DNA of 64,000 nucleotides from Irpex lacteus (taxonomy: Eukaryota; Basidiomycota; Agaricomycetes; Polyporales; Irpicaceae), in contig MQVO02000013.1 of NCBI GenBank assembly GCA_001986395.2, positions 558,001 to 622,000 of the forward strand, read 5' to 3'. The translations under genes were made by a program, and so were the position numbers. The notes beneath the pieces are model-generated. The model was not told where the DNA came from and ran no database searches. It saw only the letters and a list, made by a program, of their open reading frames with translations. Below, piece by piece: positions 411 to 10,833 of this stretch (its first letter is position 1; every line of letters starts with the position of its first letter).

Positions 411-415
411 CCCCC
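411..415. repeat. Target-site duplication CCCCC (partner at 10453-10457)
   Basis: Five C residues directly precede the left LTR and the same five directly follow the right LTR. Five-base duplications are usual for Ty3-type integrases. Keeping one copy joins the two halves of the host gene in frame. Confidence 0.9.
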
Positions 416-661
416 TGTAAAGGTTACTTATCACTCGTGCACAATGAGTATGACCGAGTTGTGATTCGATCCTACGGTTTTATGTACAAAGTGAAAAGTT
501 GCTATCTAATCTCGCACTCGCGCCCGTATGTGCGCTCGTGAACTATACAGTACTTCCCGATATGGATGGGACTTTCCCATCCGCCATCCCGAGGTGGTCG
601 CTCTCCTAGCGCCCACCGATTATTCCCCAATTATTTATCTAAGTATTACCGATCCCTCACA
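416..661 (-). repeat. 3' LTR (left copy), 246 bp
   Basis: Starts TGTAAAGG and ends CTCACA on the plus strand. It matches the right LTR over its whole length by eye. It contains a perfect inverted repeat at 564-582 (arms GGATGGGA/TCCCATCC, 3-nt loop), which could form a hairpin in RNA from either strand. In the element's sense an AT-rich stretch (ATAAATAATT, about 631-640 on the plus strand) may serve as a TATA-like element. Confidence 0.95.
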
Positions 662-3047: not shown

Positions 3048-6000
3048 CTACATCTTTGGTAGCTGCGCTGCCTTCTTAACTCCTTGAGTCTCTAGGTAGA
3101 GTTCCAATTCTGTGCAATTTTCTACGTTTTCCAGTGGTTCCCAGGAGTCCTCACCCACGTTCCACTTAACCCTGAATTGCAGCGTACGCCCTTTCCCGCG
3201 GTGTGCGGTGATTTCCTCAACCAACCATAGCGCATCCGCCGGAACCCCCATGTCGTACATAACTCTCGTCTCCCGATGAGGAAACAGCACGTCGTCGTTC
3301 GCTTCGTGTCTACGTAGTCGGCTCACATGGAACGTGGGGTGTATGCGACGTTGCTTGAGGTCCTCCGGCAGCATCAATTTGTAAGTCGATGTGTCCGGCC
3401 ACGCCTCCTCAACCTTGTATGGTCCAATGAACTTTGGCAGTAACTTCTTCGCGCGACCCTTCGGGAGATTCAAGTTCTCCGTAGACAAGTACACCAGGTC
3501 ACCCTGCCGAATGGGTTGAAACTCCCCATGCCGTACGTTTTCGTCTCTGCGTCTCTTATTCGCCTGGTGAGTCTGCTGCACTCTAGCGTCGATAGTGGCA
3601 TCGTGAGCGATGGCCAGGTTATTTAACGCGGCCTCCGCGAACGACTTCACCCCTGGCAACGCCGAGTCAGGTAGGCTCCTCACCATGCTGGGGAGATAAC
3701 CCCCCGTCAGTTCGAACGGTGCGTAACCCGTAGTACTGCTCGCCGATGAGTTCAGTGCGAACTGAACCATTGGAAGCTGGTCTACCCAGTCCTTCTGATC
3801 AGGGCGAACTACCGCTCGTAACACCTGCGTTATGGAGCGATTCGCCCTCTCCGTCGCACCGTCGGTCTGGGGATGGAACGCCGTAGACATCAGCAGTCGT
3901 GTCCCCAGCAGTCGCTGCAGCTCCTTCCAGAACGCCGACGTGAATTTGGAGTCGCGGTCACTGACGATGGATTCCGCCACTCCATGCAGGCTGACTATCT
4001 CTTTCAAATATAGCCACGCCAGGTCGCTGGCCTTTACCTTCGTCGTCGTGGGTATCAAGTGTACGTACGACGTCAGTCGACAGATCACGACCCATAAGTA
4101 GTCGAATCCCCGGCTTCGTGGGAACGGGCCCACGAAATCCATCGCTATGGACTGCCACGGCCGGCTGGGGATGGGCATACTGTGCAGCAACCCCGGGACC
4201 AGCTGTGTGCTGGATTTCGTAGTCTGGCAGACCCCACAACTGGTGCAATACGCATCGACTTCCTTTCCCAGTGACGGCCACCAATACCACCGTCGCACGT
4301 ACTCGCCGGTCTTCCGACCTCCGAAGTGCCCTATCGCTGTATGTGCCGCCTCTATCACCATTTCCGTCACCATTCGCTTTCCGATCTTTACGCGTGGCAC
4401 GCAGAGTACATCTTCTCCCACGGTGTTCTTCATATATAGGAGCTCTCCCTCCTTTCTGAACAGTCGGTGCTCTTCGGGCGCCGCCAGGATTTTCACGAAC
4501 GTGCTATCCTGGACGTATCCATTCGCCACCGCGGCCAGGAATCCCTCCACGCCCTTCATTCGTTCCTTTAACGACACCAGTGCCTCATCGTGGTTTACAA
4601 CCACTGGGTCTTCCTCGTTCTCGTGCAACTCCTCGGCCTGCAGTTGGCGCTCTTCCAATGCTGCCTTGGCCGTAAAGCTGCGGGTCTCCATACGTCGTAG
4701 TTCGATCGCCCGCTCGAATGGCAATTCGTCTCCCTCTGGGTCGAATCGTGCGTCCGCGTTGACGAAGACGTCATATGGGTGAGTCTCCCCATCACGGTCC
4801 GTTGCGTAGTACCTCGACAAGCAGTCGGCTACCCTGTTCAACTCACCCTTCACGTATATTATCCTATAGTCGAACCGCTCGATGTACTCCATCCACCGGG
4901 TCTGCCGCGGGTTGAAGTGGGCCTGAGTTTTGAAAAACTCCAGCGCCTTGTGGTCCGTCACGATTCTTATGGGATACCCCAATAGTTTGTCCTCCCACTT
5001 CAGCAACGCCTCCAGGATGGCTATTGTCTCCATCTCGAACACGCGGTAAGCATGTTGTGCCACTGTGAACTTCTTGGACATGAAACCCGCGGGTCTGCAG
5101 GAGTGCCACTCCTTTCCCTGCCCGTACACCGCCCCGACACCGTACAGGGATGCGTCGCATATTACCCATATCGGTTCGTCGATCCGTGCGTCAATCGGTC
5201 GCAGTATCGGGACCTTGCACGCCAGCGTCTTTATCATGCGGAAACACTTCTCATGGATTGGCTTCCACTCGAACGAGTGCCCATTTCGCGTGATCTCGGC
5301 CAGAGGGCCCGTGTACGCTGACACATCCGGCATAAACTGCGCAAGGTACTGCACCAACCCCAGGAAACGTTGTACGTCGGTGTAGTCCCTCGGAGTCCTC
5401 CATTCCCTAACCTTCTCCATCTTGTCCGCACTAGCATGCAGCCCCTTATCGTCTATCAGGTGTCCTAGACAGTCCATCCGAGGTGAGTAAAGGTCGCACT
5501 TCGATGCCTTTAGGTACAGCTCAGCCCGCCGCAAACATTCAAACACCTTTCCCAGATGTTCCTCATGCTCCTCTATCGTGTCTGAATAGATGAATACATC
5601 ATCCAGGTACGCATGTACGAACCGCCCAATGTGTTCTCTGAACACGTGCGTCATTAGTCTCTGGAACGTCGAGGGTGCGTTACAATCCCCTTGCTGCATG
5701 ACGTAACTCAGCATCGTCCCGTAGACCGTGGAGAACGCAGTCTTCCACACGTCCTCTGGCACTACCCGGATTTGTTCGTAGGCGTCGGACAGATCAATCT
5801 TCGAGCGGAACTTAGCCCGCGCCACGTCCATACGAATCTGCTCTTGGTCCGGGAATGGTGATACGTCATGGATGGTATTGTCGTTACGCTGCCGACAGTC
5901 AAATACCGTCCGCAATCCCCCATCTTTCTTCGGTAAGCACATCATGGGTGCGGCCTGGGGAACGTTCTGAAACGTCCACCAGCCTGCCCCCACGTACCGT

Positions 6001-6290
6001 TTGATCTTTTCCAACAATTTCGGTTTCAACGCATCAGAGCACTTCGGGTGATGATACCGGTACTGATGTTTCTCATCCACCAGTGGTATTCGATGGTTAA
6101 TCTCCCGCATCGGCGGCAGCCTATCGGGCACTCCGCCCAGCATGTCAGCATATGCTTCCAACCACCTTTCTCTCAACTTCGGTATGTCGTCCTTGCCCAA
6201 CGACGTCTTTGATAGTTCAATACTAGCCATCCCCTCTTTCGCCTCCGTCGACGGCGCGGTCTGCAACGTACCGCTCGCCGTCGCATCCAC
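3048..6290 (-). CDS. pol: Retrotransposon Pol: RT, RNase H, integrase, chromodomain (1080 codons after the UGA)
   Basis: Reverse transcriptase spans about residues 50-260, with the catalytic YLDD near 229 and the QQGDCNAPSTFQ block. RNase H follows, with CDAS near 377. The integrase has an HHCC zinc domain (HTAIGH..CTSC) and a complete DD35E triad: Asp in MDFVG near 717, Asp in SDRDSKF near 775 and Glu in ATERAN, with 35 residues between the second and third. The C-terminal 75 residues form a chromodomain (W..EEI, FRVKWN, DSWEPLENV), which in chromoviruses binds modified histone tails and steers integration. No stop or frameshift breaks the ORF. It is in frame with Gag-Pro, separated by one UGA, so it is probably made as a Gag-Pol fusion. 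The GTG at 6290 is only the first codon of the open frame I count. Confidence 0.93.
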   Translation of the reverse strand: MDATASGTLQTAPSTEAKEGMASIELSKTSLGKDDIPKLRERWLEAYADMLGGVPDRLPPMREINHRIPLVDEKHQYRYHHPKCSDALKPKLLEKIKRYVGAGWWTFQNVPQAAPMMCLPKKDGGLRTVFDCRQRNDNTIHDVSPFPDQEQIRMDVARAKFRSKIDLSDAYEQIRVVPEDVWKTAFSTVYGTMLSYVMQQGDCNAPSTFQRLMTHVFREHIGRFVHAYLDDVFIYSDTIEEHEEHLGKVFECLRRAELYLKASKCDLYSPRMDCLGHLIDDKGLHASADKMEKVREWRTPRDYTDVQRFLGLVQYLAQFMPDVSAYTGPLAEITRNGHSFEWKPIHEKCFRMIKTLACKVPILRPIDARIDEPIWVICDASLYGVGAVYGQGKEWHSCRPAGFMSKKFTVAQHAYRVFEMETIAILEALLKWEDKLLGYPIRIVTDHKALEFFKTQAHFNPRQTRWMEYIERFDYRIIYVKGELNRVADCLSRYYATDRDGETHPYDVFVNADARFDPEGDELPFERAIELRRMETRSFTAKAALEERQLQAEELHENEEDPVVVNHDEALVSLKERMKGVEGFLAAVANGYVQDSTFVKILAAPEEHRLFRKEGELLYMKNTVGEDVLCVPRVKIGKRMVTEMVIEAAHTAIGHFGGRKTGEYVRRWYWWPSLGKEVDAYCTSCGVCQTTKSSTQLVPGLLHSMPIPSRPWQSIAMDFVGPFPRSRGFDYLWVVICRLTSYVHLIPTTTKVKASDLAWLYLKEIVSLHGVAESIVSDRDSKFTSAFWKELQRLLGTRLLMSTAFHPQTDGATERANRSITQVLRAVVRPDQKDWVDQLPMVQFALNSSASSTTGYAPFELTGGYLPSMVRSLPDSALPGVKSFAEAALNNLAIAHDATIDARVQQTHQANKRRRDENVRHGEFQPIRQGDLVYLSTENLNLPKGRAKKLLPKFIGPYKVEEAWPDTSTYKLMLPEDLKQRRIHPTFHVSRLRRHEANDDVLFPHRETRVMYDMGVPADALWLVEEITAHRGKGRTLQFRVKWNVGEDSWEPLENVENCTELELYLETQGVKKAAQLPKM

Positions 6291-6293
6291 AGG

Positions 6294-6299
6294 TAGTCA
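6294..6299 (-). promoter_or_regulatory. UGA-CUA stop between Gag-Pro and Pol, candidate readthrough site
   Basis: Reading the minus strand, the Gag-Pro stop is TGA at 6299-6297, followed at once by CTA, CCT and GTG in the same frame. That frame then stays open for 1080 codons of Pol. UGA followed by CUA is an established leaky-stop context in several viral and cellular genes. The first in-frame Pol codon treated here as a start (6290) is GTG and no ATG lies close to it, which favours translation through the stop. Confidence 0.7.
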
Positions 6300-9200
6300 C
6301 TCCTGTGTCGTTTGCGGGGTTTGCTTGCCCCGCTCCTTTGCGTTATTTCCTATCTTTCTCTCTTCCTGTCGTAGTGCCTGCAGGGTAATCCCCTTGCACC
6401 TCAACGAGCTCGTTCCAAAATCAATGCTTACCGCATTCCCTCTCAGGAATGGGATGCCTAATACAACATCGTAGTGGTCCAGGTTTACTACGTCCAGGTA
6501 CGTATTCAATTTTTGACCCCCGACTTCTACGACCTCGTTGATCCCATAATTGATTTTTGACCTGCTACCCACGCATCCCAGCTGTAGTCCCACTGGTCTC
6601 TCCAGCGGGAATGCTTCCAGATTTGCCACGCATGCGAACGCCGGGCTCACCGCGTTGATTGACGACCCGGTGTCCACCAACGCGATACCCTGCAATCCAT
6701 TAATTGTAACTCGGATTGTCACGCACTTCGACATCAGGGCTGGCCGTGGCTTCGCCTGAGACGTCACTCTCATGGCTACGCGCTGCCCCTTGTCTTCCTC
6801 CATACTTCGGAATTGTTCCCTTGACCCGGTAACAGGCGTGGTCCTCATTCCATCAAGTCTCTCGTCGTCTGAGTCTGCGAGTGCGCTGTCGTATATATTC
6901 CTGTCGATGATGACTCGAGGGGGAACATCATCCTCCTCTTCCTCATCAGAACTGACTGTAATCTCACGGCTTTCAGGATATGCTATCCCTTCACCCGTGG
7001 GCGGTATATCCTCCAGTTCGGGCATGTCGCCCTCCCCTTCGCTTTCCGACGCTTGGTCGTTGTGGCCTACCCCACGTGACAACGCCTCAATCTCAGCCAT
7101 TATCTGTCGCGACGCGAGCTGTGTTAGGGTAGGGTGTCGTATCACGTCTCTGTGCTGCAGTCGGGTGGCCCTCATGTCCATCGCGGCCTCATGCGCGAGT
7201 CGCGCGTGCGGAGACCACTGGCTGCCGCGTACCCTAACTTCCTCTCTTCGCCGTGCTCTCAGTACGATGCCCGCGAGCTCACGAATAGGGGCACCATGCT
7301 CCAGCGCCCACCCTACATGCATCAGCTCCGTCCTCAGTCCCTGCACCTCGTACAGTAGGCGGAACATGCTCTCCTGTAGCCGTTCCATTCGCTCCTCATC
7401 TTCCCGGTTGGGCCATTCGATATCCATCCCATCAATACCCACGATCAATTCGTCGATGGGGTTTCGGTCAGGATTCGCTTCAGGGTGATCGTTCATTATG
7501 AACTGCGATATAGGCTCCTGTATATTCCGGATACCTATCCGCAGTGCGATCACCTCTGGGTGACCCCCATCACTCTCGTGCACGGCTTCTGGACCGTCCG
7601 CTTCATTCAGCTCGATGTCCTCGGTGGACTCCTCGGATTCCTCATGCATCTCATACACTCTCATGGAAGCGAAGGTGAGATCACCCGTGTCTTCCGCATC
7701 ATAGAAGTCTTCCTCAAGCTCGTACTCCTCATACGCTGAGGGGTCATCATTTGGCGACGAGTCGTACTGTTCCCCTTCGATGGGGCCACTGTCTCCTTCA
7801 TGTTCCTCTGGGAGGTTACTCTCCTCCTCCTCGACCTCGTCATCCATTACTCCCTCGTCGACGTCTACCGTCATGGCCCGGAATCCCGGCTTGTCATGCG
7901 CACTTGCAAGGTGACCAAACTGCTTGCATTTATAACATTGCACGTTCGATAAATCCCGACGCACGTCTGACCCTTTCTGGCTGGCGTTGACGTCCTTTGT
8001 GATGCTGGTCTTTGGCGCACTACTGATACTGCCCCCCGTCCCCGCTTCGGATGGTCTATTCGGGCGGGCACTTGTTCCCGCGGCATCCGGTCTGCTCGTC
8101 TCAGATACTCTCTGTTCAGGACGATTCATCGGCCTGAATCCTGTCGTCCTTGGGCGGAATACGTTTCCAGCCCTTGTCGTGCTTCCTCCGTCAGTTGGGC
8201 GCGCATCCCCACGCCCGGCCTTCTGTTTCTGAAATATCCTAGCAGTCTTCTCAGCATTCTCGATGGCCAGGGCTTCATCCAGTAGTTCATCCATCGTGTT
8301 ATCCTCAGCGGTAAGCTTGCTAGAACGCATGATCGTATTGCTCATTTCTTCAGGTAATTCCTTTAGGAACTTCCTTCGAATTGCGTACTCTCCAGGGTGC
8401 TCCACCATTTGCGTCGCGTACTTCATGAGTTCCGTGTAAAGTCCTGATACCCCAGTCATGGGCTTGTAAACTACCTGTTCGAATTTAACCGTTGCCAACT
8501 GCACCGTGGCTTGGCGTACGAATCGCTTATGTAGCTCTAGTACCACGTCTAAGAACGTCCAGTCCCATCGTAGTCGATTGGGGCCCATCACCTCCGACGT
8601 GTACCATGACAAGGCCTCACCGCCTAATGCATCTCCTACCGCGTACACTCGCGCTTCGTCCTGTTGAGGACCTACCATCCTCACTATCCAATAGAACCTT
8701 GCTAGTCCTTGTACCCATCCCTCGAATCGGTTGACGTTATCCTCGCCGTTGTACACCAAGGGAGGTTGCGGCTTGAAATGCTTAGTGAATGGGGGTAGCT
8801 TATCTGGATCTGCGTTTAATACCGCCTCCAACATTTTCATAATTGACCTCATCGCGTTCTGTACGGTGGGTAACGCCGCTGAATATGGTTGTGCAGACGA
8901 AATAGAATTCGCTCCGTAATACGTCGACCTGCCATACGCTACTCGACTCTCTCGCCTTCCCTTCTCGGGTTGGCGACTGCTTCCTCTATCTACTCGTCGT
9001 GGTACTTGCGGAATGGGTGACCGGCCCCTGTCCGGGTTCCCTCCGTCCTCATCGCTGCTGCTACCATCTCCGTCCCCGTCCTCCGGGGCACCCGCGGCTA
9101 CTCGTCCGCCCTGTGGGATCTGTCCACTCTGTCCGCGGTCGGGGTTCCTCCCCCTTTCCTCGGACCTATCCTCTTCGCGGTTAGCTCTCCCGCTGCCCGA

Positions 9201-10094
9201 TGCATCCCCTGACTCTCGTCCACCTATTAGTCCTGCTTCTCGCAGTCGCGTGTCTCTATCCTTGCCGTGCCTGGCCTGACTCTCCTCTTCCACGACTCCA
9301 GTGCCCGCCGTAGTTTCGCGGGTTCCCTCGCGGTTTGGTACGGCACTCGATCCTTGTACCTGCTCGAATGGTGTGAGTAGGTTTTCCCTATCGGCTATAG
9401 GGAGGTTTAGTCGCTTAACAACGTGCGTCATCGCGCTGAGCATGTCGTTTGCCACTTCCTCCATCTCGTCTAGCCTCTCCTCTTCTTGCACCCTCTGCAA
9501 CTTATATTTCTTGATCTGGCGCCTTGAGTCGTTGAGGTACGTGAGGCTCGCGTTGACCATCTCGATGAGGTCGGGGCTATTGCTGGGGTCATCCCACCGA
9601 CTCTTCGGTTTGGGGGACAACTGCTTGCGACTGGAAGATGGTACCGCCCTTTCTTCCCTACGTGTGGGCCGTTGGTCCACCTCCCTGTCCACTACGTTAG
9701 TCTGCTTGGTTGGGCGATGGTACTCGCCTGCTTCGGGTTCTCTCTCGTCCTCTACCTCCCGGTCTGCCCTCTGCTTCCCTTTTCCCTTAGTTACTGTCTG
9801 CTCCTGAGTAGCCTCCGGCACTACTCCTTCCACCGCTTGACCATTCGAGGTGCCCCCCTCGGTCCTACTCTTGCTCCTCGTAATGCGGGTTGTCCCCGCG
9901 GCTTGAGCCTGTTGCCCCGTGGCGTTGCGTGGACGAGGGTCCTCGCTTGCGACCTTCTGTCGTACGTCCTCGTTCGCTGCCTTTTGTTTGGCTCGTTCTC
10001 GCGTATGTGGCCTCGAGTCTTCGATCTCTTCTGACCGACCCGCTGCCTCTCCCGCGAGTCGAGTTTCCCTTGGTCTCGGTGGGTTGTCCGCCAT
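6297..10094 (-). CDS. gag-pro: Retrotransposon Gag-protease polyprotein, 1265 aa
   Basis: Structural and protease part of the chromovirus. Residues about 1-400 are charged and disordered (Arg/Glu/Ser rich). A Gag core lies at roughly 410-650 (aromatic residues near WVQGLARFYW and a FVRQATVQLATVKF helix). A zinc knuckle sits near residue 718 as CYKCKQFGHLASAH: the spacing is C-x2-C-x4-H-x4, but the last ligand is His rather than Cys. A very acidic stretch (about 735-1090) follows, then a retropepsin-type protease with DTG near residue 1139 and a matching ..VVLGIPFL block. The ATG is at 10094, 112 nt inside the 5' LTR. The ORF ends with CAG GAG UGA, followed by CUA. The length is well above that of many Ty3 Gag proteins because of the acidic insert. 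Confidence 0.93.
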   Translation of the reverse strand: MADNPPRPRETRLAGEAAGRSEEIEDSRPHTRERAKQKAANEDVRQKVASEDPRPRNATGQQAQAAGTTRITRSKSRTEGGTSNGQAVEGVVPEATQEQTVTKGKGKQRADREVEDEREPEAGEYHRPTKQTNVVDREVDQRPTRREERAVPSSSRKQLSPKPKSRWDDPSNSPDLIEMVNASLTYLNDSRRQIKKYKLQRVQEEERLDEMEEVANDMLSAMTHVVKRLNLPIADRENLLTPFEQVQGSSAVPNREGTRETTAGTGVVEEESQARHGKDRDTRLREAGLIGGRESGDASGSGRANREEDRSEERGRNPDRGQSGQIPQGGRVAAGAPEDGDGDGSSSDEDGGNPDRGRSPIPQVPRRVDRGSSRQPEKGRRESRVAYGRSTYYGANSISSAQPYSAALPTVQNAMRSIMKMLEAVLNADPDKLPPFTKHFKPQPPLVYNGEDNVNRFEGWVQGLARFYWIVRMVGPQQDEARVYAVGDALGGEALSWYTSEVMGPNRLRWDWTFLDVVLELHKRFVRQATVQLATVKFEQVVYKPMTGVSGLYTELMKYATQMVEHPGEYAIRRKFLKELPEEMSNTIMRSSKLTAEDNTMDELLDEALAIENAEKTARIFQKQKAGRGDARPTDGGSTTRAGNVFRPRTTGFRPMNRPEQRVSETSRPDAAGTSARPNRPSEAGTGGSISSAPKTSITKDVNASQKGSDVRRDLSNVQCYKCKQFGHLASAHDKPGFRAMTVDVDEGVMDDEVEEEESNLPEEHEGDSGPIEGEQYDSSPNDDPSAYEEYELEEDFYDAEDTGDLTFASMRVYEMHEESEESTEDIELNEADGPEAVHESDGGHPEVIALRIGIRNIQEPISQFIMNDHPEANPDRNPIDELIVGIDGMDIEWPNREDEERMERLQESMFRLLYEVQGLRTELMHVGWALEHGAPIRELAGIVLRARRREEVRVRGSQWSPHARLAHEAAMDMRATRLQHRDVIRHPTLTQLASRQIMAEIEALSRGVGHNDQASESEGEGDMPELEDIPPTGEGIAYPESREITVSSDEEEEDDVPPRVIIDRNIYDSALADSDDERLDGMRTTPVTGSREQFRSMEEDKGQRVAMRVTSQAKPRPALMSKCVTIRVTINGLQGIALVDTGSSINAVSPAFACVANLEAFPLERPVGLQLGCVGSRSKINYGINEVVEVGGQKLNTYLDVVNLDHYDVVLGIPFLRGNAVSIDFGTSSLRCKGITLQALRQEERKIGNNAKERGKQTPQTTQE

Positions 10095-10206
10095 TGCCGT
10101 AGGGATTTTTTTTTTATCTTCTACTGTGACTGCTTCGTCGTCCGTCTGGAGATTGGGTAGATGTAGAGGTAGAGTTGTAGTTTCGAATTCTCGATACTCA
10201 AAAAAG

Positions 10207-10452
10207 TGTAAAGGTTACTTATCACTCGTGCACAATGAGTATGACCGAGTTGTGATTCGATCCTACGGTTTTATGTACAAAGTGAAAAGTTGCTATCTAA
10301 TCTCGCACTCGCGCCCGTATGTGCGCTCGTGAACTATACAGTACTTCCCGATATGGATGGGACTTTCCCATCCGCCATCCCGAGGTGGTCGCTCTCCTAG
10401 CGCCCACCGATTATTCCCCAATTATTTATCTAAGTATTACCGATCCCTCACA
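10207..10452 (-). repeat. 5' LTR (right copy), 246 bp
   Basis: Identical by eye to 416-661. In the element's orientation this is the promoter LTR that precedes the Gag start by about 112 nt. It is followed on the plus strand by CCCCC (10453-10457), the second copy of the target duplication. Confidence 0.95.
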
Positions 10453-10833
10453 CCCCCTCTCAAGTTCGATGAGCGTCTTGGCAAGGCCTTTAAGAATGAG
10501 GAAGACCTACACTGCCTCAGAGAGAAGATCAAGCTTGTATATCGCATGGCCGTCAAGCATGGACAAGAATATATTGTCTTGGGTCGGTGGTGATGCTTAT
10601 ACCGAGGAACCGCCGTATTGAATGCCACATTTACTATTATAGCCGCGATGGGCTGCGGGGCGTACTGGTGTCCGCCTCGTCAGGTAGCGGAAGAGATGAA
10701 AGCAATTTTACAAGAACCAGAATTCAAAGGACGCTTCCGCGAGATTGTATTTGCAGTATACAGCAAGCCCGATGCATACGACTCCTCCAACTTTGCCATT
10801 TTTAAAGAGGTGTTCGACAATGTCGAGATTTAG

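Follow-up and report, generated by a model that had tools for sequence, protein, structure and literature searches.

In the basidiomycete Ustilago maydis, UGA followed by CUA is reported to be sufficient for translational readthrough, which is lowered when UAA or UAG is the stop, and readthrough at UGA CU(A) is described for tpi1 of this fungus as well as for human LDHB and MDH1 (PMC4207609). Among fission-yeast retrotransposons, Tj1, Tcry1, and Tosmo1-3 carry GAA-TGA-CT followed by A or G at the Gag/Pol stop, with 8 nt strictly conserved (PMC10085805), and Tj1 is inactive without its Gag stop, indicating that the stop is required for transposition (PMC4600332). The in-frame gag stop of murine leukaemia virus is likewise read through to yield Gag-Pol, and gag and pol of Candida albicans Tca2 are divided by UGA, with no readthrough of this junction in Saccharomyces cerevisiae and promoter activity instead (PMC2194720). 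Moreover, UGA separates gag and pol in Verticillium VdLTRE5, and Tca2 is a Ty1/copia element (PMC3441728). Considering the behavior of Tca2, a stop between gag and pol is by itself no proof of readthrough.

Here, we analyzed a Ty3/gypsy element from a 64,000-nt stretch of the Irpex lacteus genome (the window), in which an earlier note had proposed that a Gag-Pol fusion may depend on readthrough of UGA-CUA. Judged from sequence comparison, the UGA closing Gag-protease is very probably a programmed leaky stop. Gag-protease and Pol are laid out in a single frame, UGA-CUA has been kept against saturated silent change, and Pol is under selection; the stop and its CUA thus stand in frame with an ORF under selection 3' of them, as expected of programmed UGA-CUA readthrough. 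No report of such a UGA-CUA junction was found in the open full-text literature searched, outside which the survey of Gao et al. 2003 lies, and the junction may already be known.

Architecture of the element

On the minus strand, the element is bounded by a 5' LTR (10207..10452) and a 3' LTR (416..661) of the same 246-nt sequence (TGTGAG...TTTACA), which are bordered by two copies of a CCCCC target-site duplication (411..415 and 10453..10457). The identical LTRs and the duplication uphold the earlier description of a young element. The Gag-protease ORF extends from its first Met to TGA (6297..10094, minus strand; 1265 aa) within a stop-to-stop frame of 1305 codons (6297-10214), and its aspartyl protease domain (6441..6716; Pfam PF13975/PF13650) is located 5' of the stop. 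Between protease and reverse transcriptase (RT), the in-frame UGA (6297..6299) is followed by the CUA codon that completes the context (6294..6296), the minus strand reading GAG TGA CTA CCT GTG at 6302-6288. The earlier note, according to which the Gag-protease ORF ends in UGA with CUA CCU GUG next in frame, was therefore accurate in sequence and coordinates, though it did not give the strand.

As had also been claimed, the same frame then stays open for the 1082 codons of the Pol ORF (3048..6296, minus strand), through Pfam domains for RT (5460..5933; PF00078), RNase H (4872..5180; PF17917), integrase zinc-binding and core regions (3870..4367; PF17921, with PF00665 slightly below its cut-off), and a C-terminal chromodomain (3096..3224; PF00385, 23.7 bits, slightly below the curated Pfam cut-off of 25.1). 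The Ty3 polyprotein was the best solved-structure match to Pol (E 4e-103), and the last 83 residues matched mainly chromodomain chains, with cpSRP43 at the top (E 4e-7). The LTRs, the target-site duplication, and the order protease-RT-RNase H-integrase assign the element to the Ty3/gypsy LTR retrotransposons, and the chromodomain following integrase, weak but correctly placed, assigns it to the chromoviruses. When the LTR and a 401-nt junction sequence were searched as DNA against the 44.3-Mb genome, no second copy was matched, so the window element appears to be the sole member of its subfamily.

Several other features of the element were observed on the same strand. The Gag zinc knuckle (7893-7937) reads CYKCKQFGHLASAHD, with His at the position of the final Cys in a 16-sequence consensus of aligned Gag relatives, and it is separated from the protease by an acidic stretch of 398 residues (6699-7892) consisting of 25% Asp or Glu, which is unusually long by the standards of Ty3/gypsy Gag. 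The sequence 3' of the 5' LTR, from 10206 downwards, begins CTTTTTTGAGTATCGAG and contains no TGG-type primer-binding site; nor was a self-priming complement found there among exact matches, the longest complement between this site and the LTR being 7 nt, at LTR position 211.

Conservation of the junction and selection on Pol

Related copies in the genome were retrieved with an RT piece and a protease piece as queries, and since such genome searches score best candidates only, the number of copies is a lower bound. TGACTA was present at all of the 16 readable junctions, which fall into six subfamilies (C257, i.e., the window copy; C70; two in C309; C173; two in C185; C147; C174; C186; C187; C54; C316; C35; C123; and C214). 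The earlier note had called for this alignment and had named a sense codon in most other copies as the refuting outcome; a sense codon was seen in none. The C147 subfamily accounts for ten of the 16 copies, which hardly differ from one another at the junction, so the independent lineages number six rather than sixteen. Three copies are decayed (C123, C214, and the second C309 copy) and may have kept the hexamer by descent.

Outside the hexamer, the six subfamilies have little sequence in common. Without gaps, mean pairwise identity was 1.0 within the hexamer but fell to 0.34 in the 5' flank and 0.29 in the 3' flank (60 nt each), and of the 300 columns in an ungapped, stop-anchored alignment, only seven were invariant, namely the hexamer TGACTA and a G at +10. 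These seven recur among the 12 invariant columns obtained when the 160 nt that begin at the stop are aligned with gaps. The G at +10 (TGA CTA NNN G) occurs in all six subfamilies (position 6290 of the window on the minus strand, L003, L004, L005, L009, and L013) and may belong to the signal or be due to chance. Across the subfamilies, the codon preceding the stop is GAG, GCA, GTG, AAC, GAG, and GAA, i.e., a Glu codon in three of six subfamilies; while TGACT is found in every subfamily, GAA before the stop is found in only one (10 of the 16 copies) and GAG in two. The estimated probability of sharing the hexamer by chance is 1.4e-5 (one third for the stop type and 0.32 for the third base of CTN, over five further lineages), which ignores shared ancestry and serves as a guide only.

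Selection was analyzed with one representative per subfamily (15 pairs among six, of which C185a contributed only 375 codons). In pol 3' of the stop, silent differences were saturated, with pS of 0.785 to 0.878 across the 15 pairs and pN of 0.13 to 0.26, and identity at four-fold sites was near random (0.278 to 0.370). Among 97 columns with an invariant residue of a four- or six-codon amino acid, only 2 showed one codon common to all six representatives, and the same codon was used throughout in 1 of the 22 invariant Leu columns. The hexamer has thus remained invariant while silent sites became saturated, which places the constraint at the nucleotide rather than the codon level. Moreover, Pol is open over the 375 to 1082 codons examined past the stop and under purifying selection in each subfamily; therefore, Pol is translated. 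The gag pieces are constrained as well, with finite dS (2.4 to 5.9) and dN/dS of 0.10 to 0.24 in 4 of the 15 pairs, the other 11 being saturated. Taken together, that UGA-CUA is retained by every copy found, although silent sites in pol are saturated between the six subfamilies, supports the readthrough reading of the earlier note.

Related proteins and other Ty3-type elements

Junction DNA was read in one genome, and related species were compared through the ends of their proteins. A protease-end search returned 24 Gag-protease relatives, and a profile of 16 Gag relatives retrieved three proteins, of which P0145 was the one new, giving 25 in total. All 25 terminate 44 to 81 residues past the conserved protease block, and 15 end in Glu. 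When the first 24 were thinned to 16 by a crude string ratio, Glu was the final residue in 9 of 16, compared with 5.6% Glu in the preceding tails. The seven named relatives are from Irpex, Cerrena (three), Amylocystis, Daedaleopsis, and Ganoderma, and the nearest named matches were from Irpex for Gag-protease and from Phanerochaete for Pol. P0121 shares its tail with the window subfamily and P0122 with the C309 subfamily, and both may originate from this species or a close one. P0132, shorter at its end than its close relatives, may be a cut gene model.

No protease block was present 5' of RT in 118 of the 120 Pol relatives listed (of 974 matches), the other two being fused models (P0017 and P0076); some of those listed start within or just 5' of RT (P0061, P0066, and P0068) and are uninformative about the region upstream. 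Protein searches covered lengths of 0.55 to 1.75 times the query, a range that left out single-ORF Gag-Pol proteins of >1893 aa in the Pol search or >2219 aa in the Gag search and so disfavors fused proteins; the count of separate Pol proteins is thus support and not a census. A stop of this kind suggests that automated gene prediction will divide these elements in two or splice them wrongly.

When RT pieces were placed in a tree, the UGA-CUA copies grouped with these relatives (support of 0.63 for the seven such copies included and 0.75 for these together with ten homologues, some inner nodes being lower), and the nearest outsiders among the sequences used were two single-frame families, of 2791 and 2686 codons, from the same genome. 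In other Ty3-type families of the genome (L019, L020, L022-L025, L027, and L029), RT lies in a frame of about 1480 to 2790 codons, and no stop separates it from the protease in the stretch examined. Four further RT families have an in-frame stop 594 to 1020 nt 5' of RT, followed by other codons or of another type (TGA GGA, TGA CGC, TGA TGC, and TAG GAG), so that TGA CTA was found at none of them; L026 and L028, with several in-frame stops 5' of RT, were left out of this count. The presence of single-frame and stop-type elements in one genome indicates that several expression modes coexist. In addition, the pol frame of L072 overlaps a 506-codon ORF of another frame by about 50 nt (1504-1556), which suggests a frameshift type.

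Beyond this genome, a DNA search of viral_contigs returned no relatives, and a search of genome_contigs returned 14 Ty3/gypsy-like Pol loci (L058-L071; 30 to 35% identity) in prokaryote records, which are probably eukaryotic contaminants. An in-frame stop lay upstream of the match in 11 of the 14 within the stretch examined; none of these 11 reads TGA CTA, and one (L067) reads TGA CTT. The latter locus, in a record labelled Erythrobacter MAG that is probably eukaryotic contamination, has a Gag frame open for 380 codons with a zinc knuckle at its end; TGA CTT (1359-1364) comes next, and protease and Pol follow in frame. It is perhaps another UGA-CU leaky stop, and in this far relative the stop precedes the protease, the usual place, whereas that of the window element follows it.

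Alternative explanations for the stop

Three other explanations of the junction were weighed. The first holds that Pol is translated separately, by reinitiation or from an internal promoter or subgenomic RNA at the junction, for which there is a precedent in the promoter activity at the Tca2 junction (PMC2194720). Pol is indeed a separate ORF, and codon 23 past the stop is an in-frame ATG in the window copy; however, the first in-frame ATG of the six subfamilies falls at codons 23, 67, 37, 66, none within 79, and 53, so that no AUG is conserved for reinitiation, and separate translation would leave unexplained both the fixed UGA with its CUA and the position of Pol in the Gag frame. We thus regard it as unlikely. 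The second explanation, a spliced RNA in which the stop is excised and Gag-protease fused to Pol, would agree with the two fused models (P0017 and P0076), which may owe their form to predicted introns. Nevertheless, a scan for introns of 40 to 150 nt with common donors, a branch-like motif, and a YAG acceptor, a simple rule set that left out unusual donors, gave no frame-keeping candidate in any of the six subfamilies, and the TGACTA hexamer is neither donor nor acceptor, which makes splicing very improbable. Finally, a sequencing error or recent nonsense (or somatic) mutation, the simple alternative of the earlier note, would look alike in a single copy with one stop in an otherwise open frame but is refuted on three counts, which leave it a negligible probability: the stop is common to all 16 aligned copies, which span six divergent subfamilies; P0121, a Gag from another data source that is 99% identical in the searched region, ends at the same residue; and Pol 3' of the stop is under selection.

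RNA structure around the stop

The expectation that a conserved RNA structure would flank the stop was not borne out, as the subfamilies fold differently. In the window copy, a candidate hairpin (6249..6283, minus strand) starts 16 nt past the U of UGA, with z of -1.81 and -1.72 for 60-nt windows. Across the subfamilies, 60-nt windows 3' of the stop had mean z of -1.17, -1.70, and -1.65 at offsets of 0, 6, and 12, respectively, with uncorrected P values of 0.137, 0.035, and 0.040 against control windows of the same elements; at offset 6, immediately past the hexamer, the windows were on average more structured than these controls. The 3' region of C173 is strongly structured (z -4.11), while controls as low as the 3' region made up 61% in C147, 33% in C309, and 27% in C185a. 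No fold common to the six subfamilies was found in the 3' flanks, where the combined signal was weak, and the junction region had no Rfam match. On the 5' side, the 100 nt before the stop gave z of -3.09 in the window copy, compared with -0.22 to -1.04 in the other five. A structural stimulator 3' of the stop is possible.

Proposed readthrough and comparison with known systems

Under the proposed programmed readthrough, the simplest mechanism in view of Ustilago and the fission-yeast elements, the majority of ribosomes would stop at UGA and release Gag-protease, while in a minority a near-cognate tRNA would decode UGA owing to the CUA that follows; these ribosomes would stay in frame and produce a fusion of Gag, protease, RT, RNase H, integrase, and chromodomain. 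Since the protease lies 5' of the stop, it would be produced with every Gag, and the fusion would ration RT and integrase alone. The occurrence of readthrough, its rate, the residue inserted, and a requirement for a set proportion of Gag to Gag-Pol are inferred. The sequence comparisons make a strong case that the six-base stop context is itself the selected unit, having outlasted both its diverged flanks and randomized silent sites; UGA-CUA readthrough would thereby be extended to a group of basidiomycete retrotransposons, and rationing could fall between protease and RT rather than between Gag and protease. More tentatively, and with somewhat less than even confidence, these elements may represent a widespread Agaricomycete chromovirus lineage in which a minimal (GAR)-UGA-CUA cassette without fixed RNA structure splits Gag-protease from RT-integrase and keeps the protease equimolar with Gag, with an origin separate from that of the fission-yeast Tf1/sushi cassette. 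If so, the same 6- to 8-nt solution has been fixed more than once in Ty3/gypsy elements.

The readthrough genes tpi1, LDHB, and MDH1 have the same UGA CUA context as the window element (PMC4207609), but they are cellular genes, and what they acquire is a short targeting tail, in contrast to a Pol of 1082 residues here. Closer in kind are the fission-yeast Tf1/sushi chromoviruses, which, like the window element, are Ty3/gypsy elements with a chromodomain and one in-frame TGA, although they belong to a different host group and have the stop between Gag and protease, whereas the protease of the window element is 5' of the stop. Their 8-nt sequence at the stop (GAATGACT) is not kept here, as the codon before the stop varies; Glu, encoded before the stop in that motif, is also a frequent last residue of the Gag-protease relatives. 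Tf1/sushi elements are self-primed, the RNA start pairing with a site just past the 5' LTR, and no complement for such pairing was found among exact matches in the window element. Tca2 and VdLTRE5, as Ty1/copia elements, belong to another superfamily, and no conserved UGA-CUA is reported for either in the excerpts of their sources. Murine leukaemia virus resembles the window element in its in-frame stop before the pol part, but its signal includes a 3' pseudoknot; moreover, its protease reportedly lies 3' of the stop, as the title of Yoshinaka 1985 also has it. In avian alpharetroviruses, the protease ends Gag, with RT and integrase 3' of the recoding site, and recoding is by -1 frameshift rather than by stop readthrough. 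Thus, the layout of the window element, with the protease before the recoding site, resembles that of the avian alpharetroviruses, while the mechanism differs.
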